This document shows, one piece after another, positions 730 to 60,456 of a DNA stretch of 64,000 nt. A program made the translations under genes and the position numbers. Source of the DNA: Pseudorasbora parva (taxonomy: Eukaryota; Chordata; Actinopteri; Cypriniformes; Gobionidae); assembly GCF_024679245.1 (NCBI RefSeq), contig NC_090173.1, forward strand, positions 56,635,211 through 56,699,210. The letters run 5' to 3'. Under the pieces are notes generated by a model. It was given only the letters and a program-made list of their open reading frames with translations, had not been told where the DNA came from and did not search any database. Numbering within the stretch: position 1 is the first letter of the stretch; every line of letters begins with the position of its first letter.

Positions 730-1186
730 CTAGCCACTTCCTCCAGCTCCTAAGGGGGGAACCCCGAGGCGTTCCCAGGCCAGCCGGGAGACATAATCCC
801 TCCAGCGTGTCCTGGGTCTTTCCCGGGGCCTCCTCCCAGTGGGACGTGACTGGAACACCTCCCAGGGAAGGCGCCCAGGAGGCATCCGAAATAGATGCCC
901 GAGCCACCTCAGCTGGCTCCTCTCGATGTGAAGGAGCAACGGCTGTACTCTGAGCTCCTCCCGAGGGACCGAGCTTCTCACCCTATCTCTAAAGGAGCAC
1001 CCAGCCAGCCAGGGAAGAAAGCTAATTTCAGCCGCCTGTATCCGGGATCTTGTCCTTTCGTTCATGACCCACAGCTCATGACCATGGGTGAGAGTAGGAA
1101 CGTAGATTGACCGGTAAATCGAGAGCTTCGCCTTACGGCTCAGCTCCTTCTTCACCCTGACAGATCGGTACATCGCCCGAATTACA
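730..1186 (-). pseudogene. LINE C-terminal fragment after RT
   Basis: The minus-strand frame reads AMYRSVRVKKELSRKAKLS and then a conserved fish LINE C-terminus (PTLTHGHELWVMNERTRS, then HIERSQLRWLGHLFRMPPG). It continues the RT fragment at 1435-1914; the sequence between them is a later insertion. It probably represents the thumb and C-terminal nucleic-acid-binding region. No catalytic residues are expected here. Confidence 0.65.
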
Positions 1187-1430
1187 ACGGGGGACACTAA
1201 AATTATGATCCTAAAAGTTATTTCAGGGGACACTAAAGTTATTCAACTAAATATAAAAATAAAATGTATTCATTTGGTCATATTTAATTCTATAAACCAT
1301 CCAAATTAAACTATCCAAATCTAATTTTGTTGCAATGTTGTCCTGTTTAACACTGTGATGCTGCTTTGAAACAATCGTCATTGTAAAAGCGCTATATAAA
1401 TAAAGTTGATTGATTGATTGATTGATTACT
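1186..1430 (+). repeat. L2-tail or SINE-like insertion inside the LINE
   Basis: This block splits the LINE reading frame. It ends with AAAGCGCTATATAAATAAAG followed by (TTGA)n, the 3' tail shared by fish L2-type LINEs and the SINEs that use them. ATTAC occurs at both edges (1181-1185 and 1425-1429) and may be the target duplication. The internal GGGGACACTAAA word occurs twice. No RNA polymerase III boxes were recognised, so it could equally be a very short L2 3' end. Confidence 0.5.
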
Positions 1431-1434
1431 GCAG

Positions 1435-1914
1435 ATACTGCACCGATCTGTCTGTCAATCTCCCATTCCATCCTTCCCTCACTCGTGAACTCCTCCACTT
1501 GAGGCAAGAACTCTCCACCAACCTGAAGTGAGCAAGCTACCCTTTTCCGACTGAGAAGCATGGCCTCGGACTTGGAGGTGCTGATTCTCATCCCAGCCGC
1601 TTCACACTCGGCTGCAAACCCAGTGAATGCTGACGGTCCTGGTCTGAGGGTGCCAACACGATAACATCATCTGCAAAGAGCAGTGACAAAATCGCATGTT
1701 CCCCAAACCGGACACTCTCTGACCCTTGGCTGCATCTAGAAATTCTGTCCATAAAAATTATGAACAGAACCGGTGACAAAGGGCAGCCCTGCCGGAGACC
1801 AACATGCACCGGGAACAAATTTGACTTACTGCTGGCAATGTGAACCAAGCTTCTACTCTGGTCGTAAAGGGACCGTACACCCCTAAGCAAGGGGGCCCCG
1901 GACCCCATACTCAC
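1435..1914 (-). pseudogene. LINE reverse transcriptase fragment (FADD core)
   Basis: Two overlapping minus-strand frames cover the palm of a non-LTR reverse transcriptase. The upstream piece has GLRQGCPLSPVLFIIFMDRI followed by the catalytic box FADD. The downstream piece has the TSKSEAMLLSRK and GREFT-like region, ending at EIDRQIGAVSAV where a second repeat has been inserted. A frameshift separates them around 1590. The thumb and C-terminus continue at 730-1186. The fragment is dead: truncated at the 5' end, frameshifted and interrupted. Confidence 0.75.
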
Positions 1915-2516
1915 CGAGCACCAGGAATACAGTTTCCATTATAGGCTGAACATGGTCTGCAACAATGCTTAGGTAGGTGGTGCGTGTCAAAGTAACATCC
2001 ACATGACACCCTGAATGGTCTGCGGCTATGCAGCCCCATACGCATCAGAACCAGTATTAACTTTCAATTTGAGCTCCAGTAGCTCGTCTGTTTGATCAGA
2101 CCAAATCCTTACACTTGCCCATTTTTCCTGCTTCCAACACATCAATGTTGATGAGAAAATGTTCACTTGCTGCCTAATATATCCCATCCACTAACAGGAG
2201 CCGTGATGAAGAGATCATCAGTGTTATTCACTTCATCTGTCAGTGGTCATAATGTTATGCCTGATTAGTGTACGTTAACCTTATAACCACGGTCCACTGT
2301 AACATCCCGTAGTTACATATATCTGAATTAGGGGTGTCCATGGTTAACCGATTAACCGTTAAAAATTGCGTAACCGAGTGAAAAATTTTGCTCGGTTAAG
2401 TGGCGTCAATGACGTGCTTTGAATTTAGTTGTAATACATTTTTGCACCACTAGAGACCGCCAGAGCGCTCTCAGACATTTGTAATATCCACAAGAAGTCA
2501 TGACCAGCTTTCTAAC

Positions 2517-2591
2517 ATGAAGTGGGCAAAGAAAAGTACAGCGTGGGAGCACTTTAAAATTGAGAGTGACGGGGCAAAATGCAAGTATTGG
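2517..2591 (+). pseudogene. BED-type zinc finger start of a hAT transposase
   Basis: An ATG at 2517 opens MKWAKKSTAWEHFKIESDG followed by AKCKYW. This matches the start of BED fingers: an aromatic W..HF pair followed by CxxC-type ligands. Here the second cysteine codon would fall exactly where the LINE begins at 2591-2592, so the finger is cut after Cys-Lys-Tyr. Sequence after the LINE pair (7462 onward, CAATGCAATGCTTACC) could continue the finger, but a further insertion soon obscures it. This supports the hAT assignment of the surrounding element. Confidence 0.6.
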
Positions 2592-5500
2592 AATCATAAA
2601 ACACGGGACGTGATGTTTAACTGTCCATTGTGCCAATGGATAGTATGCACATGAGGTTTGCCTCGATGTTGAGAGTGGCATGAGAGTTGTATCTCAAAAG
2701 TGGGAAAAGGTTTTTTTAAATTCTCTTCCTCTTTTTTTTTTTCCTTCGGGGGGGACACATCATCTGTAGTGTACCCTTGAATCAGGGGGTGTTTCAGCCA
2801 TTCAACACTATACACCCTCATCAAAGGTGGCCAGCTACAGGGTGATCAAACCTGAGCTTGTGTCCCTTGCCCAAAAGAAAAAAAAGAAGAAAAAAGAAGA
2901 GAAAAAAAAAAACAAACAAAAAAAAAAAAACCCAGAGCTGACCTGGGGTTGTGACCTGGGTTCTCATGTGGGGTGTAGGGTGGGGGGATCAGTGAGTGGG
3001 TCATGTTGTTGCTCTTTGAGCCCAGCAAGGGTCTTTCCGCTTAATCCATATCCACTGGCTGCTTCTTTCGGCCACTTCAGAGACTGATCTAATTGTCTGC
3101 CGCAGAGTCTGTCCATGGATGCCAAGGTCTTTCAGCATTCTAATGGTGGAAGAAGCCATGAAACCTCTGCATCCCACTTCAACCGGATAGACTTTTGCTT
3201 TCCATCCTCGTTGTTGGACGTCTGCTGCCAGTTCTATATATCGCAGTTTCTTGCGCTCATAGGCCTCTTCTACTAAGTTCTCCCATGGGACCGTGAGCTC
3301 AATGATGTACACTGACTTCAATGAAGGGGACCAGAGTACCAAGTCTGGCCTAAGGGTGGTGACTGCTATCTCAGGTGGGAAGATTAGTTGCTGGCCAATA
3401 TCAACTAGCATCTTCCAATCCCGGGCCATGGCTAGCTCTCCAGCTTCTGGTTTGGTAGGGGGATGGTTGGGCTTTTTCTGTCCCTCTCGGATGAAGGTTT
3501 GGGCCGTGATGGAATTGGCTGCTCTCAGGGGCAAGGAGTTGTTGGTATTTCTCTTGCTCTCAAGAGCTGCTGCCAGACTTTTCAGGACCTGGTTGTGTCT
3601 CCAGGTGTAACGACCTTGTGTGAGGCTGGTCTTACAACCGCTCAGGATGTGTTTGAGAGTCGCTGGAGTTGGGCAAAGGGGACAGGTTGGGTCCTCGCCA
3701 TACCATTGGCAGAGGTTTTTTGGTGATGGGAGCACATCATAGGTAGCTCTGATGATGAAGCTGATATTGCTTGCCTCCATCTCCCAGAGCTCCCTCCAGC
3801 TGAGCTTTCTCCTCTCCAGGCCTTCCCACCTTATACATTGTCCCTGTTTAGCAAGAGAGACGATCTTTGCACTTCTTTGCACCTCCTCTTGACGGCGCAC
3901 CTCCTCGACCACCATTTTCCTCCTCTCTGATGTTGAGGCCTTATGCCAAGTTGGCTTACTTGCTGTAAGGCCAAAGCCTCCTCTTCCCAACTGGACGTGC
4001 CCTACAATGTCACTGTGCCTCAGGGCTGATGTAGCTTGCTGCACCGCGTTGGATGGCGTCCATTTCCGTCCAGTTTCCAGGGATGGAACAGCATTACTGA
4101 TGGTCTGGTCTTTGGAGTCCTTCAAAGTCATCTGAAGTCTTACTTTAGCGCACTTGTACTCTTCGGTAAGGCTTGTGATAGGCAATTCAAGGACCCCTCT
4201 GCCATAGAGGCTGATGTTAGTCAGACAGCGTGGGACGCCAAGCCATTTCTTTACGTATGAAGTCATGGTTCGCTCCATCTTCTCCACAGTTGTTATTGGG
4301 AGCTCGTAAATAGTGAGTGGCCACATTGCCCGAGGGAGAAGTCCAAATTGCAGGCACCAGAGCTTAAGCTTCCCTGGCAGTAAAGTGCTGTTGATTTTTT
4401 CCAGACTGTTGGTAATGTCCTGCCTTAGTTGCTTCACTTGATCTTTGTCCCTTAGGCTTGCATTGTACCACCTGCCCAGGCTTTTGACAGGTTGTTCAGA
4501 CACTGTTGGTATTGGGTCGTCACCAATGCAGAACTTCACGTTTTTAAGCTGTCCCTTAACTATTGAGATGCTTCGTGACTTTTTCGGTTTGATTTTCATC
4601 CGGGCCCACTTGATGCTCTCCTGCAGTTTTCCAAGTAGCCGCCTGGTGCATGCTGCAGTAGTGGTCAGAATGGTCATGTCATCCATGTATGCTCGGATGG
4701 GTGGAAGACGGATCCCGTTCTTAGTTCGCTCACCCCCCACCACCCATCTTGAGGCCCTGATAATAACTTCCATGGCCATTGTGAAGGCCAGGGGTGAGAT
4801 GGTACAGCCTGCCATAATGCCTACTTCGACGCACTGCCATGATGTTGTGAAGTCGGCCGTTGTGAAGCAAAGTTGCAGGTCTTCGAAGTAGGCTTTTACT
4901 AGACTAGTGACAGATGATGGAACTTGGAAGAAGTTGAAAGATTCCCAAAGGAGGTTATGAGGAACTGATCCAAAGGCATTGGCCAGATCAAGGAAAATGA
5001 CATGGATGTCTCTTTTGTCTTTTTTCGCTGCTTGGATCTGGTGCCAGATCATACTGGAATGCTCCAAACAACCAGAAAACCCAGGAATGCCGGCCTTCTG
5101 TACAGATGTATCAATGTACTTGTTCTTCTCCAGATAGGTGGACAACCTCTGTGCTATCACGCTGAAAAAGATTTTCCCTTCAACGTTGAGAAGGCAGATT
5201 GGCCGGAATTGACTTATGTCTGTCGCGTCATTCTCCTTGGGAATTAGCACCCCTCCAGCCCTTCGCCACGCCTTAGGTATTATTCTCTTCTGCCACACTA
5301 TCCTCATGAGCCTCCAAAGGTAGCGTAGAACATCTGGTGCATTCTTGTAGAGCTTATACGGTACTCCATTTGGCCCAGGGGCTGATGCCGATCTTGCGTG
5401 TCGTACTGTTCTCTCTACTTCCTTCCATTTTGGAGGGCCAGTCTCCAGATTGAATTCAGGAGGTTGAATAGGTGGGATGTCTTGCGGGATAACTATCTGT

Positions 5501-6664
5501 TCGTGCCTTTTCGTGTCATGGTGGACCTTTTCCAGATGTTTTTCCAATTCTTGCTTTGGAATTTTCAGGGTTCCGTTTTTTTCCTTAGCGAAGAGGTCTT
5601 TGACAAACTTGAAGGGGTTTTTGTAGAATCGAGTTCTTGTGTGTTCCTTCTTCTTGCGAAGTTTCCTCAAGTTTTCTGCTCTTCGCAAGGTTGCCAGCCG
5701 ACACTTGATGTCCCCCTGGAGTAGCATGAGACCCTCTCTCTCTACCTCAGGGGCCTTCTTCCACTGCTTTCTCAGCTGCCTTCTCTCTTTGACCAACCTT
5801 TCGATCTCTTGCTGCCTCCTGGATTTGGCTGTTGCTGGTGTAGCTTTTTTACTTTTCCTTGTGTTCACTCCAAAGCGCTCTTCCCCGTAGTGGTAAATTA
5901 AGTTGCCCATCCTTTCCAGTTTTTTCTCTGCTGTGCCCACTTGTTGCTCCAGGATTTTTGTCAGATCATTGTTGACTATTTCCCACTCTCTCTTTTCAAC
6001 AGTTTTGGGCCACTTCACACTCGGTCTGTGCCCTTTGATCTTTTCCTCTTTGGGAGGTCTCTGTAGTTGGGTGGGTTCCTCCACCTGCATTCCTGTGCTT
6101 GTATTACCCTCCTCAGTGACAGGGGTGCTGATGCTCTGCAAACTTTGGTTTTTTTCCAGTTGCTGTGCTTCAATCGACTGATTTGACTGGTTGCTTCGTA
6201 AGAAGTACTGGTCAATGCGAGGCCCTTGTCCCTGCTCTCTCAAGCACCCTCTCTTTCCTTGGTGGGTCCTTAACCCCCTGTATGATGTTATTTTTTCCCA
6301 GCCACAGGTGCACATTTGAAGTGAGTGTCCTGTTGCCGCTGTGGTTGTCTCATGTGCCGTGTTCTTACTCGTAGTCATGTCCGTTCCTGGGTCTGTAACC
6401 ATGCTGTCAGTCATTGAGCCATCTTGCGCCCCCACTCTCGCAGGCTCTAGGGGTATGTTCCTTTGTTTACTTTCTGTAGCATTTTGCGGGTGTCTCCAAC
6501 TCACTTAAACCGTGTTGGAGACTGCCACCATGGGTAGCTAGCCCATGACAGCCCCAGTGGGGTCTATTCCCTCCAGTCAGCTGTCTCTCCAAGCAGTCAC
6601 ACAGACTTTCCTATGTTGTCAGCTGTCCTTTCACAGCGGTCACTGGACAAGTCCAGATACTCAG
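2592..6664 (-). mobile_element. Restriction-like-endonuclease LINE, copy A (near full length)
   Basis: A non-LTR retrotransposon on the minus strand with a ~160-base 5' leader, one long ORF and a 3' UTR with oligo-A/T tracts. Its 3' end abuts the broken hAT BED finger at 2591. Its 5' end abuts the 3' end of copy B at 6665. Encoding one protein with an N-terminal zinc finger, central RT and C-terminal CCHC plus PD-(D/E)xK nuclease is the architecture of the R2/R4/Hero/NeSL group. I cannot place it within that group. Confidence 0.75.
3001..6414 (-). CDS. R2/Hero-type LINE polyprotein: zinc finger, RT, restriction-like endonuclease
   Basis: The protein would nick target DNA and prime reverse transcription of its own RNA there. 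The frame is open from 6504 without an ATG; the first ATG is at 6414, giving 1137 aa. Numbered from the open-frame start, C65, C67, H81 and C87 form a finger-like motif, and basic helices follow around 230-300. RT motifs include FLDLANAFG (about D506) and a YMDD catalytic box at 606-609, where most LINEs have FADD or YADD. After the thumb come a CCHC knuckle (C941, C944, H952, C957) and RPDLVLWSP...YIIELT (D1054, E1069), the restriction-like nuclease core. No internal stop is present, so the copy may be recent. Clade (R2, R4, Hero or other) is unresolved. Confidence 0.8.
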   Translation of the reverse strand: MTDSMVTDPGTDMTTSKNTAHETTTAATGHSLQMCTCGWEKITSYRGLRTHQGKRGCLREQGQGPRIDQYFLRSNQSNQSIEAQQLEKNQSLQSISTPVTEEGNTSTGMQVEEPTQLQRPPKEEKIKGHRPSVKWPKTVEKREWEIVNNDLTKILEQQVGTAEKKLERMGNLIYHYGEERFGVNTRKSKKATPATAKSRRQQEIERLVKERRQLRKQWKKAPEVEREGLMLLQGDIKCRLATLRRAENLRKLRKKKEHTRTRFYKNPFKFVKDLFAKEKNGTLKIPKQELEKHLEKVHHDTKRHEQIVIPQDIPPIQPPEFNLETGPPKWKEVERTVRHARSASAPGPNGVPYKLYKNAPDVLRYLWRLMRIVWQKRIIPKAWRRAGGVLIPKENDATDISQFRPICLLNVEGKIFFSVIAQRLSTYLEKNKYIDTSVQKAGIPGFSGCLEHSSMIWHQIQAAKKDKRDIHVIFLDLANAFGSVPHNLLWESFNFFQVPSSVTSLVKAYFEDLQLCFTTADFTTSWQCVEVGIMAGCTISPLAFTMAMEVIIRASRWVVGGERTKNGIRLPPIRAYMDDMTILTTTAACTRRLLGKLQESIKWARMKIKPKKSRSISIVKGQLKNVKFCIGDDPIPTVSEQPVKSLGRWYNASLRDKDQVKQLRQDITNSLEKINSTLLPGKLKLWCLQFGLLPRAMWPLTIYELPITTVEKMERTMTSYVKKWLGVPRCLTNISLYGRGVLELPITSLTEEYKCAKVRLQMTLKDSKDQTISNAVPSLETGRKWTPSNAVQQATSALRHSDIVGHVQLGRGGFGLTASKPTWHKASTSERRKMVVEEVRRQEEVQRSAKIVSLAKQGQCIRWEGLERRKLSWRELWEMEASNISFIIRATYDVLPSPKNLCQWYGEDPTCPLCPTPATLKHILSGCKTSLTQGRYTWRHNQVLKSLAAALESKRNTNNSLPLRAANSITAQTFIREGQKKPNHPPTKPEAGELAMARDWKMLVDIGQQLIFPPEIAVTTLRPDLVLWSPSLKSVYIIELTVPWENLVEEAYERKKLRYIELAADVQQRGWKAKVYPVEVGCRGFMASSTIRMLKDLGIHGQTLRQTIRSVSEVAERSSQWIWIKRKDPCWAQRATT

Positions 6665-7461
6665 AATCATAAAACACGGGACGTGATGTTTAACTGTCCA
6701 TTGTGCCAATGGATAGTATGCACATGAGGTTTGCCTCGATGTTGAGAGTGGCATGAGAGTTGTATCTCAAAAGTGGGAAAAGGTTTTTTTAAATTCTCTT
6801 CCTCTTTTTTTTTTCCTTCGGGGGGGACACATCATCAGTAGTGTACCCTTGAATCAGGGGGTGTTTCAGCCATTCAACACTATACACCCTCATCAAAGGT
6901 GGCCAGCTACAGGGTGATCAAACCTGAGCTTGTGTCCCTTGCCCAAAAGAAAAAAAAGAAGAAAAAAGAAGAGAAAAAAACAAACAAACAAAAAAAAAAA
7001 AAAACCCAGAGCTGACCTGGGGTTGTGACCTGGGTTCTCATGTGGGGTGTAGGGTGGGGGGATCAGTGAGTGGGTCATGTTGTTGCTCTTTGAGCCCAGC
7101 AAGGGTCTTTCCGCTTAATCCATATCCACTGGCTGCTTCTTTCGGCCACTTCAGAGACTGATCTAATTGTCTGCCGCAGAGTCTGTCCATGGATGCCAAG
7201 GTCTTTCAGCATTCTAATGGTGGAAGAAGCCATGAAACCTCTGCATCCCACTTCAACCGGATAGACTTTTGCTTTCCATCCTCGTTGTTGGACGTCTGCT
7301 GCCAGTTCTATATATCGCAGTTTCTTGCACTCATAGGTCTCTTCTACTAAGTTCTCCCATGGGACCGTGAGCTCAATGATGTACACTGACTTCAATGAAG
7401 GGGACCAGAGTACCAAGTCTGGCCTAAGGGTGGTGACTGCTATCTCAGGTGGGAAGATTAG
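6665..7461 (-). mobile_element. Restriction-like-endonuclease LINE, copy B (5'-truncated)
   Basis: Bases 6665-7461 repeat 2591-3389 almost exactly, including the 3' UTR homopolymer runs, with a few substitutions and A-tract length changes. Copy B keeps only the 3' ~0.8 kb, so it is a 5'-truncated insertion. Both copies share the same 3' terminus (GAATCAT) and orientation and lie head to tail. The upstream edge at 7461 passes into CAATGCAATGCTTACC, probably hAT target sequence. Confidence 0.8.
7075..7461 (-). pseudogene. C-terminal nuclease fragment of the LINE protein (copy B)
   Basis: This open frame matches the last ~129 residues of the copy A protein and differs at only a few residues (for example EETYECKK where copy A has EEAYERKK). 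It retains the RPDLVLWSP and YIIELT segments of the restriction-like nuclease and the same stop codon. With no RT or zinc finger it cannot mobilise itself. The near identity to copy A implies both came from the same active lineage within a short time. Confidence 0.8.
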
Positions 7462-10204: not shown

Positions 10205-12848
10205 TGGCTACCAAACTATCACCCCATCGGCCATGGGACTGCGCCAGCGACCTCCAGCCTGGCTACTCTACCTAAGGACCGCATCTATCCTCTGTCCATC
10301 CCGGAACAGAAGGCCATGGAGGAGTATGTACACGAAGCGCTACAGCAAGAGTTCATCCGTCTATCGACCCTCCCCTGCCGCTTCGAGCTTTTTCTTCGTG
10401 GCCAAGAAGGACGGAGGCGTGCGACCGTGTATCGACTACAGTCACCTGAATTCTCAGACCGTCAAGTTTAGTTATCCCCTTCCTCTAGTCCCATCCGCCC
10501 TAGAACAGCTCCGTGGGGCCACCATCTTCTCCAAGCTCGATCTCAGAAGTGCCTACAACCTCATTTGCATTCGCAAGGGAGACGAGTGGAAGACAGCCTT
10601 CATCACTCCCTCAGGTCACTATGGATATCGTGTGGGCCGTATGGGCTGTCCAACTCACCCTCCGTCTTCCAAAATTACATGAATGAGGTATTTTGTGAAT
10701 TCTTAAACAAGTTTGTCATCGTCTATATCGATGATATCCTCATCTATTGTAGTGACTTGAGGGAGCATTTAGGAGCATGTCTGTCAAGTCCTGCAAAAGC
10801 TTTGAGACTATCACCTTTATCTCAAGCTCGAAGTGCGAGTTCCATGTCTCCACTGTCCAGTTTCTTGGGTACATCATAGACAACCATGGAGTCAAGATGG
10901 ACCAGAGGAAGGTGGACACCATCACCCATTGGCCACAGCCCAACACCATCAAAGAGCTGCAGCGCTTCCTGGGATTCGCCAACTTCTACCGCCGCTTCAT
11001 AAAGAATTACAGCCTGCTCAGCTCCTAACTCACCTCTCTGCTCCAAAACCGGCCCAAGTCTCTGTCCTGGACTCCATCGGCCATGGAGGCCTTCCACCAG
11101 CTGAAGAACGCCTTCCAGTCCACTCCGATGCTGGTCCATCCCAATCCTTATCTTCCGTTCATCATCGAAGTGGATGCCTTATCGACCGGGGTCGGAGCGG
11201 TTCTGTCTCAGCGGCAGGGGACACCCTCACGACTCCATCCATGCACCTTCTTCTCCAGGAAGCTATCCTCGGCGGAGCAGAACTATGACATTGGCAACCG
11301 GGAGCTCCTGGTGATCAAGCTCGCTCTGGAGGAATGGAGATACTAGAGGGAGCAGAACATCCATTTGAAGTCATCACCGATCATCGTAACCTTGAATACC
11401 TTCATGACGCCAAGAGGCTGAATCATCGTCAGGCCCGCTGGGCCCTCTTTTTCACCAGATTTAATTTCAAGGTGACGTACCGCCCAGGGAACCATAGCAA
11501 CCGGGCGGATGCCCTTTCTTGTCTCCACCAAGCCGACCCTGAGCCCGAGCACCTTGAAACCATCCTCCCTCCAGCCATGGTTGTCAGCCCGATCCAGTGG
11601 GCGCTCCACGAACAGATCCAACAGGAAAACGCCCAACAGCCTGCTCCGCCGTGAGGTCCAGAAGGGCGCCTCTATGTCCCACCTCTCCATTGCCTGCCCC
11701 TTCTGGACTTGGCTCATTCTTCACCGGGCTCTGGACACCTAGGCAGGAGAAGGACCCTCTAGCTCCTTCGTCACTGTTACTGGTGGCCCGCCATGCCTCG
11801 GGACATCTCCCGATTCGTCAAGGGATGTTCAGTCAGCGCCAATGCCAACACCTCTAGGAGACCTCCCCGAGGGCAAGCTGGTCCCTCTTCCGATCCCCGA
11901 GCGTCCATGGAGCCATCTGGTGATCGACTTCATGACCGACCTGCCATCATCCCAAGGATTCACCTGTATCCTAGTCGTAGTCGACCGATTTTCGAAGTCC
12001 TGCAAACTCATCCCCTTCAAAGGTTTACCTACCGCGTTGGAAACTGTGGAGGCACTCTTCACACAAGTCTTCCGACATTTTGGGCTTCAATAAGACATCG
12101 TTTCCGACCGAGGACCCCAATTCATCTCTAGAGCGTGGACCGCTTTCTTCCGTATCCTAGGGGTATCCATCAGCCTCTTATCAGGTTACCATCCTCAGAC
12201 TAATGGCCAGACTGAATGGAAGATCCAGCAGATCGGGAGATTCCTGAGGGTATACTGCAACCAGAATCAGGAGAGCTGGAGCCAGTATCTGCCCTGGGCC
12301 GAAAATGCCCAGAATTCACTCCAGCAGTCCACCACAAGGCTCACCCCATTCCAATGTATCCTCGGCTACCAACCACTGCTCTTCCCCTGGACGGGTGAGC
12401 CCTCGGAGGTCCCAGCGGTGGATTACTGGTTCCGCCAGAGCGAGAGGGTCTGGGACTCAGCGCACATAATATTAAGCCAAACGCAGACCCACGCCGCGAT
12501 ACCAGCCAGGCCAGAAGGTCTGGCTCTCCACGAGGGACATCCGTCTCCGGCTGTCATGCCGTAAGAGTCCCCAGTACATCAGACCGTTCATGGTAGACAG
12601 GCAGCTGAACAAAGTCACCTATCGCCTTCACCTTCCTCCCACCTACAGAATATCCCATTCATTTCATGTGTCATTATTCAAGCCCTTCACTGAACCTGTC
12701 CCTTCTTCACCCACAGATCCTGGTGATGGTGCCGTACCTCCTCCTCTTACCATCGACGAGGACTCATCAGTCTACCGGGTGAGCACCATCCTCGACTCAC
12801 GGCGACGGGGTTCCCGGATGGAATACCTGGTAAATTGGGAGGACTATG
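10205..12848 (+). pseudogene. gypsy pol: RT, RNase H, integrase, first half of chromodomain
   Basis: The protein would copy and integrate the retroelement. Visible RT pieces are [19 protein letters not shown] (about 10270), [17 protein letters not shown] (10390) and the catalytic YIDDIL (10725-10742). [13 protein letters not shown] and [14 protein letters not shown] follow. RNase H shows [18 protein letters not shown] (11160) and TDHRNLEYL (11376). Integrase shows [13 protein letters not shown] (11910) and, after a stop in place of a conserved residue, [13 protein letters not shown] (12093). At least five frameshifts or stops occur (near 10380, 10640, 11027, 11345 and 12092). The chromodomain starts [20 protein letters not shown] at 12770 and is cut at 12848. 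Confidence 0.8.
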
Positions 12849-12879
12849 CTGCCCTACAAAGCAAAAAGGCAGTAACTAC
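12849..12879 (+). repeat. Left terminal inverted repeat of the 4.6-kb transposon
   Basis: Starts CTGCCCTACAAAG and contains CAAAAAGGCAGTAACT. It pairs with 17449-17479 with mismatches at positions 13 and 30. Near-identical subterminal copies of AAAAAGGCAGTAACTAC at 13102-13118 and the reversed GCAGTTACTGT at 13044 look like additional transposase binding sites. Confidence 0.85.
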
Positions 12880-13737
12880 GCAGAGTGCAGAACTGAGAAA
12901 AATGACTTTAAAGTTATCCTGTCATCCAGCCTAAGTAGTTGTAGGTAGATTATTGGACATGTGGCTTTTTTGTTACTTTATATTAGTTTTATTTTTGTAC
13001 ATATCAATCCTCATTTTTAATTTGGTATTTTACCCCTATTTTGCAGTTACTGTATTCTTGCTTTGTATTACTTACCAAAAACGTGGCACCATGCCAAGGA
13101 AAAAGGCAGTAACTACAGATTCTCCAAGAACTATTTTGCCACAACTTGGGCTCTGGGTGTGTTAGATATATTACTGTATTTTACTGTATTTGAAATAATT
13201 GGAACCATTTGTTTTTCTGAACATGGATATACCAAACCCAAATTAATTTGACCATTTTAGGTCAATATTTTCCACCCGGAAGCTGTTCTGGTGCTGAAAC
13301 GGCTGCTTAAAGTCTCACATTGCTAAGCTGTATCAAGGCCCAAATGGGGACAATTTATTTTGAATAGGACCACATTATTATGTGTGAGTATTAGATTAAT
13401 GTGTCTCTGGGGGTGTTTCTCAATCTGTAATGTAGTATCTGCTATACCTACAAATCACATTCATGTTAAAGCATTGCAAAACAACTTTTCTTTGGAGCAA
13501 TATAGGCAAGTTAAACTCCAATTCAACAGAGCAAAACAAAATCATGTTGCCTAAGTGTTTCTAACGCTTTTTGTACTCTTATGATGATAACTAAGATAAA
13601 CAAGTTGATGATTTTATATGGTGCAGTATCTGTTTCAGTAGGTTTATAAACATAAAGTACTGAATGAAATGAATACATGGGACAGATATTTCAAATTAGT
13701 AAACATACATTTAATAATAGATTGTGTGTGTGTATAT

Positions 13738-13744
13738 ATATATA

Positions 13745-13807
<63 letters not shown>

Positions 13808-13840
13808 ATGAATGAATGAATGAATAAATAAATAAATAAT
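13738..13840. repeat. (AAAT)n microsatellite near the transposase stop
   Basis: About 23 tandem AAAT units, with a short AATG interruption at 13807-13823. It lies just downstream (minus strand) of the transposase stop codon, in the presumed 3' UTR. A (TA)n run precedes it at 13734-13744. Confidence 0.9.
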
Positions 13841-13891
13841 GATGATAATAATAATACAAATAATTGATGAACACCACATTTCATATGGTTA

Positions 13892-15736
13892 TTACTCCTC
13901 ATCCTCCAAAACATTGCTCACAGGCAGGGAATACCAGAACACCCTCCTGTTTGGTGGCATGAGGTGACAAAGATTACAGAGGATGTCTCTCTTCTTGACC
14001 TCCTCAACCCCTCTATTCTGTGGTCGCAAAAGAGTGGGCACCTTCAGCGAGAATTTCTTCATGAGGAAGTCCAATTCCATAAATTCATTCTCCGTATGGG
14101 ACAGCTTGTAAAAGAGGCTCTTGGAGCCACGCCGCACCTGTATCTCCGCCATCTCCCCAAGCTTTGGTGCTTGCGCTTTCTTGACCTTGACGGTGGAGTG
14201 GCCATCCCTCCAATCTAGCACATTGGCATTCTCCAATTTGATAACATCCACCTTCCTGGAGTTGGAGCTTGCCACAACACTCACAAAGTCCTCAAAGTCG
14301 TAGACCACACCACCTGGACGGCTCCTCATTTGCTGCTCGACACCATGGTGGAAACTGTCTGCGCTCATGAACGTGTGTCCCCTCTCAAAAAACTTTAGTG
14401 TGATGTCCTCCTGTGAAATGGTGTCACTGTTCACAAGAGTGACAAGTGAGGATAGAAGGCACCAGTTCTTATTCTGTGCACTGCAGTTGTCCACCCAGAA
14501 TATGGTGTGGCGTACATCCCGCTCCTTCTCCAATGCAGTTGTATATGCTGATGTAATTTCCGCGGCACTTCGCCCAGCCATTCCCTCGTGCCACAATACA
14601 GAGATGGTGTTTTTTTTGTTTGTTTTTTTCCCCACTGAGGCAAATGTTTCGTGGTATGCCACGATGCGACGAGTAAATACTGCTGACTTGACTCCTGGCA
14701 TCCGTGGCAGCATTATCACCTTCTGGAGGTCCACACTCCGAACTGATGTCATGTCCGGCCAGTCCCTCTCTGCATCTGCCTGGTAGCTTTGGCGGCTCTC
14801 TAGGGCAGACTGCTTATGTTTGTTCCACCTTAGGCACTCTGGGCAATCTGAGCTTTCAGTCTCCCCTGTGTGGCAGTTCACATGTTCTGCATGTTCCAAA
14901 CAGTCCTCACATTGCTCCTCCCCAAGTTTGGCAAAGCTGATTTTTTTGTCTTTTACCATCTTCCTGTATGCTTCATAGGAGCAGGCGTTTCCTTTATCCA
15001 GGTAGTCTGAATGCATCATCTTAATTGTGATGTCACTTGGCAGGTACCGTCGATTTGGGGCATGCTCCCGTCTGTAATGGCTCACACAAGGATGGAAGGA
15101 CTCAATGTGGTCATCAAGGGTCTTCACGTCTATCTTGTTGACTGCAGCCTGCCTTCCTCTCTGGTCCTTGGATGGAACCAGTGGCCTGGTGTTCGACTTC
15201 CCCATCATGGAAATAACGAGACTGTCATTTTTAGGGTGGTAGCCCAATGATGACAGGAAAAACATTTTGCAGACCTGTCTTGGCTCTCCTTTCTGGTTTT
15301 GCAGGCGGTAGATAAATGAGCGGCCACGGCGACTTTCTGGGCCGGTTGTTATTCTTTTGGTTGGCATTGGGGTAACTGAGTAAAACATCCATGATCGTCT
15401 TTCTGTGTAGGTCATCTCCCAGTACTGACTCCATATCTCCCTCCGTCTTTCCTCTGAAATATGGTCTGTACACCTTTTTCGACATTTGGCACCACATGGC
15501 TCTCTCATTGGTGGTCGACGTGATTCAACATCAGGCTGTGGCCCTGGCTGTGGCTCTGGCTGGGGCTCTGGCTGGGGCTCTGGCTGGGGCTCTTGCACTT
15601 GTTCTCCTGGGTCTCCAAGTTCCACTTCAGTCTGTGCCATCGTAGGGGTTGGGACATAATCTAGGTCTGTAATGTCATCATATAAGCTGTCCACGCTGGT
15701 GGTATCCAGGAAAGTGTCCAGGATGGTCCACTCCAT
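13892..15736 (-). CDS. Putative transposase, DNCxxQNKN family, 614 aa
   Basis: The single long ORF of the 4.6-kb transposon starts at ATG 15736 and has no internal stop. The N-terminus is acidic with a QPEP repeat (50-68). A cysteine cluster follows (C81, C85, C89, H92), then KTLDDHIESFHPCVSHYRR (205-223) and CxxC pairs (C276/C279, C298/C301) suggesting zinc binding. The C-terminal half has DLQKV (D336), LWHEG (H383/E384), WVDNCSAQNKN (D416) and ERGHTFMSADSFHHGVEQ (D460, E467). The ordered acidic residues in an RNase H-like pattern are what a DDE transposase would show. The family is widespread in insects and fish as uncharacterised proteins; I recall it as linked to Sola-type transposons, which is not verified. 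Introns upstream of 15736 cannot be excluded. Confidence 0.75.
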   Translation of the reverse strand: MEWTILDTFLDTTSVDSLYDDITDLDYVPTPTMAQTEVELGDPGEQVQEPQPEPQPEPQPEPQPGPQPDVESRRPPMREPCGAKCRKRCTDHISEERRREIWSQYWEMTYTERRSWMFYSVTPMPTKRITTGPESRRGRSFIYRLQNQKGEPRQVCKMFFLSSLGYHPKNDSLVISMMGKSNTRPLVPSKDQRGRQAAVNKIDVKTLDDHIESFHPCVSHYRREHAPNRRYLPSDITIKMMHSDYLDKGNACSYEAYRKMVKDKKISFAKLGEEQCEDCLEHAEHVNCHTGETESSDCPECLRWNKHKQSALESRQSYQADAERDWPDMTSVRSVDLQKVIMLPRMPGVKSAVFTRRIVAYHETFASVGKKTNKKNTISVLWHEGMAGRSAAEITSAYTTALEKERDVRHTIFWVDNCSAQNKNWCLLSSLVTLVNSDTISQEDITLKFFERGHTFMSADSFHHGVEQQMRSRPGGVVYDFEDFVSVVASSNSRKVDVIKLENANVLDWRDGHSTVKVKKAQAPKLGEMAEIQVRRGSKSLFYKLSHTENEFMELDFLMKKFSLKVPTLLRPQNRGVEEVKKRDILCNLCHLMPPNRRVFWYSLPVSNVLEDEE

Positions 15737-15881
15737 TGTTTCAGCGGGGGGCAGGACTTGCTGCCTCTTTGATGGAATACCTACATGTGTATCTTAAATG
15801 AAAAAGAGAGAAAATTAGTGGCATGAATGTAAATCCACATCTGTCTGTGTCTGTCTGTCTGTCTGTGTAGGCTACTGCAAC

Positions 15882-15914
<33 letters not shown>

Positions 15915-17448
15915 GTATTTATTATTAATTATTATTATATGGACCTACAGGACAACATCTTCACTCTGATCAACATATGTAGGCTATATATCGATGTCTG
16001 TATATCATAATATTTAATTGTACAGGGAATAATTTTAATAAAGTTTAATTAATTAATAAATGCCTAAATAATGACTAACACAATAATAAATTAATAATTT
16101 TTAACCCTTAATGAAAATGAAGAAAGAAAAGCCAACATACAAAAAACGCAGCCTGGCTTTATAAGTTACATTAGGTTGTAAGTTGTATTATCCTACAATA
16201 ATAGGATAAAACAGAAGCTTGCAGTAATGCAGAGGGAAACATTTTCATAGGTTAATATAATTAAGGGGAATCCAAATTAAATATATAATTTTATATTTAG
16301 AAGAACAAACCGTGCAATAAATAAATGCTTAGGAACAGGAACCAATGTGTTGAGCCTGAGCGCTAAGGGGGGTCGTAAATAACTGCCGACTCGCTCTGCA
16401 GAAGTTTGTTTTTGTTGAAAGCATGATGCTTACAGTAAAGAGAAAGGTGTCAGTTTTGCTCACAACTCACTAATTTCTTTAAACAGCGGACATAGTCTTT
16501 AAACAGCGGACATAGTCTTCAAACAGCGGACGCGAAGAGAGTGCGTTTTAAGTTGAACAGACACCTGTTGCCGTTTCTCTGTCTGTTCGTTAGTAAGATA
16601 ATTCGAAAAGTACTGTACGGATTTGGATGACATTTTCGGACAACATGGGTATTAGGACAAGGAACAGATGACTACATTTTGGTGGTGATCCGGAACACGG
16701 GACATTTGGAATTTGTAATGCTACATTGACCGCGGTTATTATGCTCTCCGAGTGCTTTTCTAGTTATTGAATATTTTTCCACCGCTGATTGGATTATAAC
16801 TTTGTGTCATGAACAACAAAATGATGACATGGCATCGGCGATGATGTGAAGTTACAGAGGATAAAGTTACAGCTAGGAGCAGGGAGGATCAGGGGGAGGT
16901 AAGCAAAGCTATTTGAAACATCGCCTGTTAATTAGCATAATGCTTTCTGAATGGACCTCTGAGAGGAAGTCCCGCCCTGGCGGCTGACAGGTGTTTATAT
17001 TGTGATAGCCTAGCCTCTAAATGTTTAATCTGTCACTGTTACTTACCATTCTCCGGGTATTTTCTTTTCAACGCCAGTTCGACCATCTTCTTTCCCCTGC
17101 TTTGTGCCATCTCAAACAAAATTTGTGGGAAGTTAGAAGGGTGAAATCGCAAATGTTAAAACCGTCTCGTGAGGATGCCGCTAAATCAGCTGTGTGTGTT
17201 CACCATGGAAACAGTAACTGCGCTGCGTAGCAACACGGTTATTTTTTGTTGGGTAAAACAAAACAAGAATACAGTAATGGATGTTACTGTACTCATGCTT
17301 TGTTTCACTAGGCCTTTTTGCAGTTACTGTACAAACGACTACCATTTTTCACCAAAACGACACACATTTGAGATAATATTTTTTGTCACATAACAAAGGA
17401 TGCCTTGAATGTCATGAAAATGATAATAACTCATTTTTGACCAAAAAT
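15737..17448. other. Non-coding interior of the 4.6-kb transposon
   Basis: AT-rich leader region upstream of the transposase. It contains (TGTC)n at 15842-15868, (ATT)n around 15883-15935 and a 20-bp tandem repeat AAACAGCGGACATAGTCTTT at 16481-16500 and 16501-16520 with a partial third copy to 16534. The tandem copies lie about 750 bases upstream of the ORF and could be protein-binding sites. No second gene is evident. Confidence 0.5.
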
Positions 17449-17479
17449 GCAGTTACTGCCTTTTTGTTTTGTAGGGCAG
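17449..17479 (-). repeat. Right terminal inverted repeat of the 4.6-kb transposon
   Basis: Reads, inverted, CTGCCCTACAAAA then CAAAAAGGCAGTAACT. Further inverted copies of the GCAGTTACTGTA word occur at 17320-17331, with weaker ones at 17270-17300, inside the right end. This mirrors the left end and supports a multi-site subterminal binding region. Confidence 0.85.
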
Positions 17480-17483
17480 TATG

Positions 17484-17704
17484 GTCCTGAGGAGCGGAGC
17501 TGGATCTCCAGGAATGATGTGCTGGACCCTAACCTTCTCACTCAGTTTCAAGACCCTGACCGACCCGCTCCTCCGGGCCGTGGTAGACCCCGTCGCTGCC
17601 CGTCCCAACCGTCAGGAGCCACCCGTGGAGGAGTGGATACTGTCACGCCCTCACAACCATTAGACACTGCCACACCCACTCGTTCCCCATCACCTGAATT
17701 CTGA
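17484..17704 (+). pseudogene. gypsy pol C-terminus: second half of chromodomain
   Basis: The frame begins [19 protein letters not shown], the C-terminal half of a gypsy chromodomain (in the intact family [11 protein letters not shown] is continuous). It then runs through a proline/arginine-rich tail and stops at 17702-17704, inside the 3' LTR. It is separated from its first half only by the 4.6-kb transposon, whose TATG duplication overlaps the Tyr-Gly codons. Chromodomains in this group are thought to guide integration to modified chromatin. Confidence 0.8.
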
Positions 17705-18809: not shown

Positions 18810-19856
18810 TCAGGGGGCGAGCACCCTAGCGCCTGGCGTCACCGGGAGGTGCAGACTATAATACCTCACGAAGGTATGCGGTGTGGCCCACCCAGCCGCC
18901 TCGCAAATCTCTTGCAGAGAAGCTCCGGAAAGGAGGGCTACCGAGGAGGCCATGCCCCTGGTAGAATGAGCCCTCACGGCTATAGGTGAAGGCAAGTTGC
19001 GCACCTGATAGGCCGTTGCTATTGCCTGGACAATCCAGTTACTAATTGTCTGTTTCGCTGCAGGCAGCCCCTTCCTAGGTGGACCAAAGCACACTAACAA
19101 CTGGTCTGACTTCCTCCACTGGGCAGACCTCTCCAAATAAATCCTCAATGCCCGCACCGGGCAGAGGAGGTGAAGCCTGCCCTCATCTGCCGTCACATGA
19201 GGCGGGGGATGAAAAGCCTGGAGAACCACCGACCGTACCGCATTAGACGGTACCTTGGGGACGTATCCCGGGGTCGGCCGCAAGATAGCTTTCACGTTGC
19301 CTGGGGCAAACTCCAAGCAATTGGGTGTTACTGCCAATGCCTGAAGGTCCCCCACCCTCCTCAGAGAGGTGATGGCTAAGAGAAAAGCTACCTTAAGCGT
19401 GAGGTTCTTGGCCTCAGCCAACTCCAGCGGTTCGAAGGGGGCCTCAACCAACCCTTCGAGAACCACTGCCAGATCCCACGCAGGGATCCTAGAACGAGCC
19501 ACAGGTCTCATCCTCCGCGCTCCTCGGAGGAACCGTACAACCAGATGGTGCCTCCCCAGAGGTCCTTCACCTAATGGTGCGTGGAAAGCTCCTATCGCTG
19601 CCACATACACCTTAAGTGTGGACGGGGTAAGCCCGGCGGAAAACCGATCTTGCAGAAACTCCAGTACTGAAGCCACAGCGCAGTTCACTGGGTCTACTTC
19701 ACGGTCTCTACACCATATGGAGAACACTCTCCACTTCAAGTTGTACAGCTTCCTGGTGGAAGGAGCCCTGGAGCTGAGTATAGTCTCCACGACACCTGCT
19801 GAAAGCCCTTCCTCTATGAGCTCTGCCCCCTCAGGGGCCAAGCCCACAGGTTCCAT
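18810..19856 (-). CDS. DIRS 1 tyrosine recombinase
   Basis: ATG at 19856 starts a 348-aa protein that would integrate the circular DNA without target duplication. The N-terminal core-binding part shows SRAPSTRKLYNLKWRVFSIW. The catalytic part has the first arginine in ITSLRRVGDLQAL, the HxxR box in AHSTRGMASS, and a tyrosine in TFVRYYSLHLP, in the expected order. The same frame stays open for a further ~1.8 kb upstream, across the whole RT, which is unusual. Overlapping RT and recombinase frames are standard for DIRS. No disabling change was noticed in this ORF. Confidence 0.85.
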   Translation of the reverse strand: MEPVGLAPEGAELIEEGLSAGVVETILSSRAPSTRKLYNLKWRVFSIWCRDREVDPVNCAVASVLEFLQDRFSAGLTPSTLKVYVAAIGAFHAPLGEGPLGRHHLVVRFLRGARRMRPVARSRIPAWDLAVVLEGLVEAPFEPLELAEAKNLTLKVAFLLAITSLRRVGDLQALAVTPNCLEFAPGNVKAILRPTPGYVPKVPSNAVRSVVLQAFHPPPHVTADEGRLHLLCPVRALRIYLERSAQWRKSDQLLVCFGPPRKGLPAAKQTISNWIVQAIATAYQVRNLPSPIAVRAHSTRGMASSVALLSGASLQEICEAAGWATPHTFVRYYSLHLPVTPGARVLAP

Positions 19857-21556
19857 AACTCTGGCTGGGGGTGAAATATCGAGCCCCCCGCCTGAGTCAA
19901 CAGATCCCTCCTCAGAGGAATCTGCCATGGAAGGTCGTCTAGCAGGTCCATAATGTCGGAGAACCATACCCTGGTCGGCCACCGGGGTGCTATCAGAAGC
20001 AGGCGAATGCCTTCCCGGCGAACCCGCTCCAGAACTCCCGGGAGCAGAGCAATCGGGGGAAATGCGTACAGACGCAGCCTCGGCCACGCCTGTGACATGG
20101 CATCCAGGCCCAACGGAGCCGGATGCCTGAGGGAGAACCAAAGTGGACAGTGGGTCGTCTCTCGAGACGCAAACAAATCCACTTCCATTCGGCCGAACCT
20201 CTCGCATATGGCCTCCACCACCTCTGGATGGAGACGCCACTCCCCGGGCCTCAGCCCCTGCCTCGACAGGATGTCTGCTCCCTGGTTCTGGTCCCCCGGG
20301 ATATAAACTGCCCTGAGAGAAGACAGTTTCCCGTGGGACCACAGGAGGACTTGATGCGCCAGTCTGTACAGAGAGCGCGATCTCAGACCCCCCTGATGAT
20401 TTAGATACGATACCACGGCAGTGTTGTCGGATCGTATCAGGACATGGTGGCCGCGAAGGTCCTCGAGAAAACTCCTCAGAGCTTTCCAGACAGCCAGCAT
20501 CTCTAGGCAGTTGATGTGCCATGAAGCATGCTGGGCTGTCCAAGGACCTCTCGCCCCTCGGCCTTCCATGACCGCGCCCCAACCAGTAAGGGATGCATCT
20601 GTTGAAACGGTTTTCCGGCAACACGATGCTCCCAGTACTAGCCCCAGGGACAGAAACCAAGGTTTCTTCCATATAACCAGGGAACGAATGCATTTGCGCG
20701 TTACCCTGATCATACGAAAGGGATTCCCCTTCGGAGAAAACCCCTTGGTTCTCAGCCACCACTGTAGCGGTCTCATGTGGAGCAGGCCGAGTGGAATCAC
20801 ACTGGACGCTGCTGCCATGAGACCCACCAGTCTCTGGAACTGTTTGACAGTGATGCTGTGGCCCAACCTTATACTTGAGACCTCCGCCCGTATGGTCTCG
20901 ATACGTGCGGGTGACATGTGTGCCCGCATCGTTACCGAGTCCCACACTATTCCCAGGAACGTAATTCTCTGGGAGGGCGTCAACGTGCTCTTTTTCGTGT
21001 TGAGTCTCAACCCCAAACACCTCATGTGTGCTAGAACAGCATCTCGATGCTGAACTGCCATATCGTACGACCTGGCCATGATCAACCAGTCGTCGATATA
21101 ATTCAGTACCCAGATGCCCTGGAGTCTTAGCGGAGCCAGGGCTGCATCCATGCACTTCGTGAAGGTGCGAGGTGACAAGGCTAGGCCAAAGGGAAGGACC
21201 CGATATTGGAACGCTTCGCCCCCGAAAGCGAACCTCAGGAACTTCCTGTGACTGGGAAGGATGGAAATATGGAAGTAAGCGTCCTTTAGATCTATCGTGA
21301 CGAACCAGTCCTCGAACTGGATCTGACTCACGATAACAGGAATGGTTAGCATCCTGAACCTGTATCTCCTCAGAGACCGATTCAGAAGCCTGAGATCTAA
21401 TATTGGACGCAACCCCCCATCCTTCTTGGGGACTATGAAGTACCGGCTGTAGAACCCGACCTCCCTTTCTGGCGGGGGGACCCTTACTATCGCCCCTTTT
21501 TCCAGCAGAGAGCGTACTTCCTGCCCCATTACCCCCACCTGCTCGGGACCGACCAC
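19814..21556 (-). CDS. DIRS 1 reverse transcriptase / RNase H
   Basis: The frame shows RYFIVPKKDGGLRPILDLR, then VTIDLKDAYFHISI (first RT aspartate), then LPFGLALSPRTFTKCMDAAL and the catalytic box YIDDWL. RNase H follows with STDASLTGWGAVMEG, CLEMLAVWKAL, IRSDNTAVVSYLN and a final QGADILSR motif. The frame has no ATG before codon 10. The residues that should precede it (LVPLSEYLGAWSCLPNISVW, about 21590-21700) lie in a different frame, so either a frameshift mutation or programmed shifting near the G run at 21580-21588 joins them. Its 3' end overlaps the recombinase ORF by 43 nt. Length 580 aa is in range for DIRS RT/RH. Confidence 0.8.
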   Translation of the reverse strand: MVGPEQVGVMGQEVRSLLEKGAIVRVPPPEREVGFYSRYFIVPKKDGGLRPILDLRLLNRSLRRYRFRMLTIPVIVSQIQFEDWFVTIDLKDAYFHISILPSHRKFLRFAFGGEAFQYRVLPFGLALSPRTFTKCMDAALAPLRLQGIWVLNYIDDWLIMARSYDMAVQHRDAVLAHMRCLGLRLNTKKSTLTPSQRITFLGIVWDSVTMRAHMSPARIETIRAEVSSIRLGHSITVKQFQRLVGLMAAASSVIPLGLLHMRPLQWWLRTKGFSPKGNPFRMIRVTRKCIRSLVIWKKPWFLSLGLVLGASCCRKTVSTDASLTGWGAVMEGRGARGPWTAQHASWHINCLEMLAVWKALRSFLEDLRGHHVLIRSDNTAVVSYLNHQGGLRSRSLYRLAHQVLLWSHGKLSSLRAVYIPGDQNQGADILSRQGLRPGEWRLHPEVVEAICERFGRMEVDLFASRETTHCPLWFSLRHPAPLGLDAMSQAWPRLRLYAFPPIALLPGVLERVRREGIRLLLIAPRWPTRVWFSDIMDLLDDLPWQIPLRRDLLTQAGGSIFHPQPELWNLWAWPLRGQSS

Positions 21557-21957: not shown

Positions 21958-22785
21958 TCAAAGAGTCTTCAATGAAGCTGCTGTCTCGGGAGAGAGGTGG
22001 CCCGCGAGCGCCTCTTCTACCCTCGGCAGCGCAACATATCCCTTCTCAGACGCTCCCAGCACGTTAGCGAAGTCAAGTGCAGGGGGCGTAGTCAAACGTG
22101 CTGAGAAGGGTTTCTCCCACGCCCTGCACAGCTCACTGTGCAGGTCGGGGAAAAACGGCAGACCCCGGCGTGGAGGCTGGGCTCGACGCTTGAAGAAGCG
22201 CTCGTCCAGCTTGCTTGGCGGCTGGACGTGCACTTCCTCTTGTGGCCAATCTAAGCTCAGCTTGGCCACAGCGCGAGTCAAGACCTCCACGAGCTCCTCC
22301 ATAGCCTGCGAGTGGGGTGGCGACTGCCCCACTGCGCCTGCTTCGGTGCTCATTGTCAACGATCCCTCGGAATCGGACAGCATGAGCACCTGATCCTCCG
22401 CCTCGCGGGAAGAAGCCGCAGCGCGGGCTTCCACACGTAGCGGAAGATCCTCTGAATCGTCAGAGGAAGAGAGAGATGCCTCAACATTCCCTAATCCCGC
22501 TGACAGATCCAGCTGCGAGCCCCACGACCTGCGGCGCCGCTCTGCCTCGGCAACAGCGGGCCCAGAACCGCGAGGCTCGCGAGGCTGACCGGCCTCGTCA
22601 AAGACCGCCAGCCGCGAGCGCAGTACTCTCAGCGGCAGCTTATCACATTCGCCGCAAGCCGCTCTCTCGAGAGCGGCCCGGGCGTGCTGCATGCCGAGAC
22701 ACTGCACACAGAGCTGGTGTGTGTCCGTGCCCGAAATAAAGCGCGGACAGGGAGGCACACACCGTCTAAACTGCTCGCTCGCCAT
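21958..22785 (-). CDS. DIRS 1 gag-like protein, C-terminally shortened
   Basis: ATG at 22785 opens MASEQFRRCVPPCPRF. The protein has a cysteine pattern (CVPPCPRF, then CVQCLG, then CGECDKLPLR) that aligns with the gag-like protein of DIRS 2 (30972-32453), suggesting a zinc-binding N-terminus. A serine/acid-rich middle and PRRGLPFFPDLHSELCRAWE follow. It ends after 275 aa, whereas the DIRS 2 protein has about 493 aa and continues past the shared GYVxxP segment. The missing part and the AT-rich patch at 21825-21862 indicate a deletion or rearrangement between gag and pol. Role: presumed RNA binding or particle formation. Confidence 0.7.
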   Translation of the reverse strand: MASEQFRRCVPPCPRFISGTDTHQLCVQCLGMQHARAALERAACGECDKLPLRVLRSRLAVFDEAGQPREPRGSGPAVAEAERRRRSWGSQLDLSAGLGNVEASLSSSDDSEDLPLRVEARAAASSREAEDQVLMLSDSEGSLTMSTEAGAVGQSPPHSQAMEELVEVLTRAVAKLSLDWPQEEVHVQPPSKLDERFFKRRAQPPRRGLPFFPDLHSELCRAWEKPFSARLTTPPALDFANVLGASEKGYVALPRVEEALAGHLSPETAASLKTL

Positions 22786-30748: not shown

Positions 30749-30940
30749 GTTCCCTTTCGAAAGGGAACTCGCGCTGCGTCAGCTGACGCTACGGGGAACG
30801 CCTTCAGCGTGACAGGTGTCTGAAATCGCTATCAAATCACAATCCTACTGACCGTCGGCAGCTGGTGATGTCATCACCGTGCGACCAGGAAGTATAATAA
30901 GGCACCGTGCCAACATGACAACATCCTTTCGTCTTCAGGG
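30749..30940 (+). repeat. DIRS 2 left inverted terminal repeat
   Basis: Begins GTTCCCTTTCGAAAGGGAAC and includes GCGTCAGCTGACGC, a long conserved middle, and AAGTATAATAAGGCACCG, a promoter-like TATAA box before the gag ATG. Inverse partner at 36120-36330. Confidence 0.85.
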
Positions 30941-30971
30941 ACTGTTTTGTCTGGTTCGTTGGAAAGTCAGA

Positions 30972-38188: not shown

Positions 38189-38223
38189 CATCAGACAGGC
38201 GGGTCGAGGACCCGAGGGAGGAG

Positions 38224-60441: not shown

Positions 60442-60456
60442 GAAGACTTCGCCACC

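Follow-up and report, generated by a model that had tools for sequence, protein, structure and literature searches.

Among DNA transposons, Sola elements are described as having a 4-bp target-site duplication (TSD), a DDD transposase, a length of 2–9 kb, and terminal inverted repeats (TIRs) of 11–1,124 bp (PMC10741241); they have been reported from zebrafish, medaka, and stickleback (PMC4746887), and the Sola2 elements of slime moulds carry AT-rich 4-bp TSDs (PMC3627910). Kolobok and piggyBac also have a 4-bp TSD, which reads TTAA, and Kolobok termini begin with 5′-RR (PMC9587614). In stickleback, 16 of 16 copies of the transposon Passer are intact at 99.97% identity, and the element is active in human cells (PMC9976928). 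The present analysis concerns a 4,631-bp transposon located in a 64-kb window (the whole stretch of DNA that was analysed) of the fish Pseudorasbora parva, contig NC_090173.1, whose gene encodes a protein of the family DUF7869. Taken as a whole, it is very probably an autonomous cut-and-paste DNA transposon with a DUF7869 transposase that has spread very recently, is probably still mobile, and is most likely of the Sola type. Feature coordinates are given as positions in the window, and genome searches covered the 1.23-Gb assembly (79 contigs).

Compared with these systems, the window element has a 4-bp TSD, a length of 4,631 bp, and 31-bp TIRs, all within the Sola definition, and its TSD is AT-rich, as in Sola2; on the other hand, its preferred target is C-TATA-G as opposed to the AWWT of Sola2, and the slime-mould TIRs are shorter (12–21 bp). 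Kolobok and piggyBac, with which the 4-bp TSD is shared, were ruled out because none of the 30 perfect TSDs recovered is TTAA; the element ends start with CT, not with the 5′-RR of Kolobok. Tc1/mariner elements (Mos1, SETMAR, and Sleeping Beauty) and retroviral integrases have the same predicted catalytic fold, with roughly 10% of the aligned residues identical; however, the mariner TSD is TA (2 bp) against 4 bp here, which speaks against Tc1/mariner, and sharing a fold does not by itself make a protein a member. Passer resembles the window element in its numerous intact, near-identical copies in a fish genome, but it belongs to another superfamily (pogo) and has been shown to move, whereas the window element is known from sequence (PMC9976928). 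Finally, the window protein matches Pfam PF25273 (DUF7869) above the gathering cut-off (28.9 bits against 26; E 1.1e-6), as the Pfam search suggested for it brought out; that family has no stated function, and it is here tied to a mobile unit, a predicted fold, and a target site.

Insertion site and genomic copies

The element proper occupies positions 12849–17479, as delimited by its TIRs, its TSD, and 23 other full-length copies in the genome. Alignment of the 31-bp TIRs (12849–12879 on the forward strand and 17449–17479 on the reverse strand) gives 29 of 31 identical positions, with mismatches at 13 and 30, and the window contains two occurrences of the TIR core, against none in 100 shuffles. 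Comparison of the flanks places TATG on both sides (12845–12848 and 17480–17483), where unoccupied gypsy copies have a single TATG-equivalent site. An earlier sequence-only reading had claimed both the TIRs with two mismatches and the TATG duplication, and correctly so; its borders, 12845–17483, correspond to the same TIR and TSD limits but take in both duplications. That reading also held that excision restores the split codons of a gypsy chromodomain, whose 5′ and 3′ parts lie at 12782–12848 and 17484–17560 (both forward strand), and the flanks joined without the element indeed give a continuous chromodomain reading (Pfam Chromo match, 6e-9). Because the pol pieces of the host gypsy lie in alternating frames while the inserted transposase gene is intact, the transposon insertion is probably younger than the gypsy decay. 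Long terminal repeats of this gypsy were searched for as direct repeats of at least 60 bases, and none was found.

Unoccupied relatives of the site were sought with the joined flanks as a 177-nt query (junction at 99/100), for which 40 of 155 candidates were scored. At least 42 matches were obtained, of which at least 40 span at least positions 6–166 and cross the junction at 89–95% identity, the remaining two being short pieces (85–166); among the 40 junction-crossing matches, 34 have no net gap. From their alignment, these unbroken gypsy sites are read as paralogous unoccupied sites with one copy of the target, and the search for empty sites proposed earlier was in this respect successful.

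The 29-bp TIR core, searched with up to three mismatches, matched the genome 42 times in forward and 42 times in reverse orientation, and 0 times when read backwards. Pairing of the matches by position, by eye, yielded 35 units, all of which were fetched: 24 of 4,583–4,631 bp on 14 contigs, eight of 1,232–1,246 bp, and one each of 850, 879, and 3,248 bp. Another 14 of the 84 matches remained unpaired, and five of these were fetched (L044–L048); against the reference, four are non-autonomous copies whose second end is absent from the matches, and L046 retains 102 bp. A perfect 4-bp TSD flanks 30 of the 35 paired units (20 of the 24 full-length copies), and a TSD with one mismatch flanks the other five (four of the full-length copies). 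The sequence-only reading had staked itself on two points, namely further genomic copies with these TIRs and 4-bp duplications, and an RNase H-like fold; many such copies were found, and the fold predicted for the protein, discussed below, is RNase H-like.

The full-length copies differ very little, with a median divergence of 0.043% and a maximum of 0.15% over 276 pairs, 21 substitution columns altogether, and an ATAA microsatellite (13736–13839) as the chief cause of length variation. All 24 retain exon 1 with its splice motifs and have an uninterrupted exon 2; the encoded length is 654 amino acids (aa) in 23 copies, with a mean protein identity of 99.93%, and 650 aa in one copy with a 12-bp in-frame deletion, and an identical protein is encoded by 18 of the 24. 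It is scarcely credible that segmental duplication or faulty assembly, and not independent insertion, accounts for these copies. L029 and L030 are alike in both 300-bp flanks and in TSD, and represent a single insertion that was later duplicated; however, no other 300-bp flanks matched between copies at E 1e-10, and the TSD sequences differ by locus. A protein search of the genome returned at least 56 matches, the same 24 copies at 100% (rounded) and one open frame at 61% (L049), the rest being fragments with at most 76% identity and distant relatives as low as 25%; no match falls between 76% and the 24 copies, and the pattern of copies looks like a single recent burst.

Non-autonomous relatives of 0.88–3.2 kb (L033–L041 and L043) carry perfect TSDs. 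The eight 1.23-kb copies have lost most of the gene and retain roughly 430 bp at the left end (12849–13280, about 91% identity) and 287 bp at the right end (17193–17479, 94–95% identity), so that these ends probably suffice in cis. Because the ends are 5–9% diverged from those of the autonomous element, the 1.23-kb copies descend from an older relative; L038 and L039 differ at one position in 1,237 bases, which points to recent movement of some non-autonomous copies. A scan of the ends located internal copies of the TIR motif at 13043–13068 (reverse strand, 21/26) and 13091–13116 (forward strand, 20/26), as against 18 for the best of 200 random sequences. At the right end, the copies at 17256–17281 (forward strand) and 17280–17305 (reverse strand) score 18/26, equal to the best random value, and 16/26, not above chance; the former and the left inner copy form an inverted repeat of 35 nt (86%), and the latter is 85% alike over 27 nt to 13046–13072. 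The right-end motifs, weak by themselves, are thus proposed mainly from the 86% inverted repeat, and the inner copies may be extra binding sites.

The DUF7869 protein and its relatives

The transposase gene lies on the reverse strand, and a two-exon structure encoding 654 aa is inferred from its splice motifs. Exon 1 (17047–17110) ends in a GTAAGT donor and encodes the peptide MAQSRGKKMVELALKRKYPE, which also opens the Astyanax protein P0003 and a version of which, 62% identical, lies upstream of the gene in the L049 lineage of the same genome. The putative intron (15793–17046) runs from this donor to a TTTAAG acceptor with the frame kept, and exon 2 (13892–15792), supported by the list of open reading frames (ORFs), the splice motifs, and the DUF7869 match, contains the 614-aa ORF at 13892–15736. 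The sequence-only reading had presented this ORF as intact; it is real, but it lacks the N terminus, to which exon 1 contributes 40 residues.

The model, VIA-align, and conservation place a predicted RNase H-like catalytic domain at ORF residues 300–505 (14222–14839, reverse strand), with the reverse-strand codons of D336 at 14729–14731, D416 at 14489–14491, and D460 at 14357–14359. In an alignment of 98 sequences, D336 and D416 are invariant (98 of 98), and D460 and E467 occur in 97 each, so that the order of acids recognised earlier stands and the two candidates for the third catalytic acid are equally conserved. The earlier reading also pointed to zinc-like cysteine pairs, and several cysteines are strongly conserved: C85 and C89 in 85 of the 85 sequences long enough to cover them, C156 in 94 of 94, C276 in 98 of the 98 aligned sequences, and C279, C298, and C301 in 97 of 98. 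Structure prediction for the catalytic domain gave a predicted local distance difference test (pLDDT) of 90.3 and a predicted template modelling score (pTM) of 0.88, and 50 of the 50 rows listed by VIA-align for the predicted fold, a re-ranking of Foldseek candidates, are DDE/D enzymes.

Two further lineages of the same genome were compared. In the first (L049, C15), a 639-aa protein 61% identical to the window transposase is encoded in a 5,362-bp unit, whose ends at 1494 and 6855 are related to those of the window element and whose TSD is TATA. Over 612 codons of the window and L049 genes, the proportion of nonsynonymous differences (pN) is 0.25, far under that of synonymous differences (pS 0.81, saturated), which argues that the transposase evolved under purifying selection. 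An outer repeat at L049 (AAGCGATAGAGG..., with AGCT) was considered for the element ends and dropped, since the window-related ends with TSD TATA sit inside it. At 1008–6895 of that locus, these near-identical outward repeats (28/30) and AGCT enclose the DUF7869 element, and they perhaps belong to another transposon or a palindromic structure.

In the second lineage (L050, C18), a distinct and distantly related transposon family, the intact 659-aa ORF shows 24% identity across 500 aa (E 9e-31) and retains all four acids. It lies in a 3,229-bp unit (915–4143) with TSD ATAT and a TIR starting CGTTAGCC that scores 30/30, as compared with 21/30 for the best of 100 shuffles. This TIR has 30 matches in the genome, from which two pairs were fetched (L051 and L052); in L051, the ATAT falls within an AT repeat and the TSD is ambiguous. 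Three lineages thus show the tie between protein family, TIR, and 4-bp duplication, and in two of them it is firm. As a separate observation, the tilapia (Sarotherodon) protein P0196, which bears the name "TARBP2", shares 83% identity with the L050 transposase along 85% of the latter; it probably represents a transposase that was joined to a host gene or misannotated as one.

Alternatively, the DUF7869 protein might be a passenger or captured host gene, mobilised by an enzyme encoded elsewhere, a reading to which the missing functional description of DUF7869 and the silence of the literature found lend some weight. It is most improbable nonetheless, and was set aside because three related protein lineages sit in separate TIR units with 4-bp TSDs; moreover, the protein has a predicted DDE/D-type fold, and after the transposase ORF the longest one in the element spans 139 aa, antisense to the transposase gene. 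Judged from these sequences, the DUF7869 protein is almost certainly the transposase, and the earlier claim that an uncharacterised protein family is tied to a mobilised unit is borne out by the DUF7869 match and by two related lineages in units with TIRs and 4-bp TSDs.

A protein database search scored 7,992 proteins and listed 120; 665 proteins had E ≤ 0.001 to the transposase, with the named ones among those listed coming from fishes, insects, Hydra, and a limpet, and a Hydra protein used as the query gave 427 matches. Among the family matches listed, no name says transposase, most rows being nameless. Viral and prokaryotic contigs yielded no confirmed relative of the protein and no match to the TIR pattern. 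A literature search, which took in few subscription papers, found no paper naming DUF7869, and for the letters QNKN it returned only papers unrelated by title. No DUF7869 member is known to have been shown to move, and none was found either. With this identification, a function is assigned to an animal protein family that is large and patchy in distribution, is listed without known function, and often has its members annotated as host genes.

Target site, superfamily, and mobility

Target preference was counted at 29 sites, excluding L030 (the duplicate of L029) and five imperfect TSDs. The preferred target C-TATA-G is matched at its six positions by 18, 21, 24, 18, 16, and 17 of the 29 sites, the TSD itself (T 21, A 24, T 18, and A 16) being AT-rich, and the information content is 3.97 bits, a value that compares with a maximum of 1.18 among 2,000 samples drawn from these flanks. 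A palindromic target of this kind would be the expected choice of a symmetric pair of subunits. The findings together are those of a cut-and-paste DDE/D element: TIRs and a TSD of fixed length at independent loci, dispersed copies, unoccupied relatives of the site, and, by prediction, an RNase H-like domain with three acids. In the mechanism proposed, the Cys/His-rich N-terminal part of the protein would bind the TIR and the inner motifs, and protomers would bring the two element ends together. The RNase H-like domain (D336, D416, and D460, with E467 as an alternative third acid) would then excise the element and join it to the target strands at points 4 nt apart, with repair of the gaps producing the 4-bp duplication. 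The autonomous element, or a close relative, may have mobilised the internally deleted copies in trans.

The element is probably of the Sola type, and most likely Sola2 by its AT-rich targets. The earlier suggestion of Sola from the 4-bp duplication is plausible in that the general features also fit, the placement being one by description. D336, D416, and D460 would supply the DDD set of a Sola transposase, provided that D460 and not the equally conserved E467 is the third acid. It is rather unlikely that this is a cut-and-paste transposon outside Sola, with DUF7869 forming a group of its own or belonging to another superfamily with a 4-bp TSD, for example, Academ. Such a placement would accord with the Sola comparison being drawn from descriptions without a link to any named Sola transposase sequence, and with the matches listed, mostly nameless, among which no named one belongs to the slime moulds whose Sola2 proteins have been published; however, the general Sola features fit (PMC10741241), and the AT-rich TSDs are as in Sola2 (PMC3627910). 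Papers containing Sola phrases (including PMC10741241, PMC4455052, and PMC9033089) were retrieved by a search covering few subscription papers, and none by its title tests Sola activity.

As for mobility, the balance of the sequence evidence leans towards a family that is still mobile. A less probable, though by no means negligible, alternative is that the family is young yet dead or silenced, the burst being finished and the copies identical merely through shortness of time. The copies are known from one genome only, and three of the 24 carry protein changes of possible relevance (L013 at C338, which is ORF C298; L018 at N476; and L028 with four amino acids missing); against this, 18 of 24 copies encode the identical protein, all 24 frames are open, and the comparable fish element Passer, with 16 of 16 copies intact at 99.97%, is active in human cells (PMC9976928).

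Several points weigh against a mobile, Sola-type DUF7869 transposon. The case for a mobile element is drawn from sequence, and the Sola fit concerns published general features. The L050 protein matches DUF7869 below the cut-off (E 0.017), and its paired family member L052 has no matching TSD and is not counted as support. Foldseek alone gave zero matches with E ≤ 0.001 for the predicted fold; VIA merely re-ranks its candidates, and the rows are redundant, with many HIV and PFV entries. Moreover, four of the 24 young copies have a mismatched TSD. These copies (L011, L012, L018, and L019) have bodies 0–1 bases from the majority, and the mismatch is always at TSD position 1 or 4, for which the chance is 1 in 16 if positions are equally likely, the cases being few. 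Mismatches at these positions are compatible with a base change where the element end touches the flank, and they might reflect a donor base next to the element that travelled with it to its new location.

A more ambitious reading, which is tentatively put forward as possible but short of probable, is that of a vertebrate transposon moving today, with a DUF7869 transposase (probably Sola2), that entered the genome recently as a single type, reached 24 loci, and carried a donor base along to produce the TSD mismatches. With 24 open, near-identical copies, the element is testable as it stands, without reconstruction. If it is active, the few gene-transfer tools for vertebrates would be joined by a superfamily with a 4-bp target and a preference for C-TATA-G, and the way would be open to studying how such transposases work chemically.

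Other features of the window

Further ORFs lie elsewhere in the window. An ORF of 1,137 aa (3001–6414, reverse strand) combines a reverse transcriptase domain with an N-terminal C2H2-like stretch and is R2/NeSL-like by reading. At 18810–21529 (reverse strand), an ORF with reverse transcriptase and RNase H overlaps one with a weak phage-integrase match, a DIRS-like arrangement; two ORFs at 21958–22785 (reverse strand) and 30915–32453 (forward strand), alike at their N termini (CPRF...DTH.LCV.CLG) and with no Pfam match, are perhaps gag-like ORFs of two DIRS copies. A 368-aa ORF with long tandem repeats and no Pfam match lies at 60403–61509 (forward strand), and a DDE_Tnp_4 ORF at 53558–54403 (reverse strand) is probably a Harbinger-type transposase fragment. 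A long interspersed nuclear element at 38176–43295 (forward strand) has two overlapping open ORFs, the first with a zinc knuckle and the second with endonuclease, reverse transcriptase, and RNase H.

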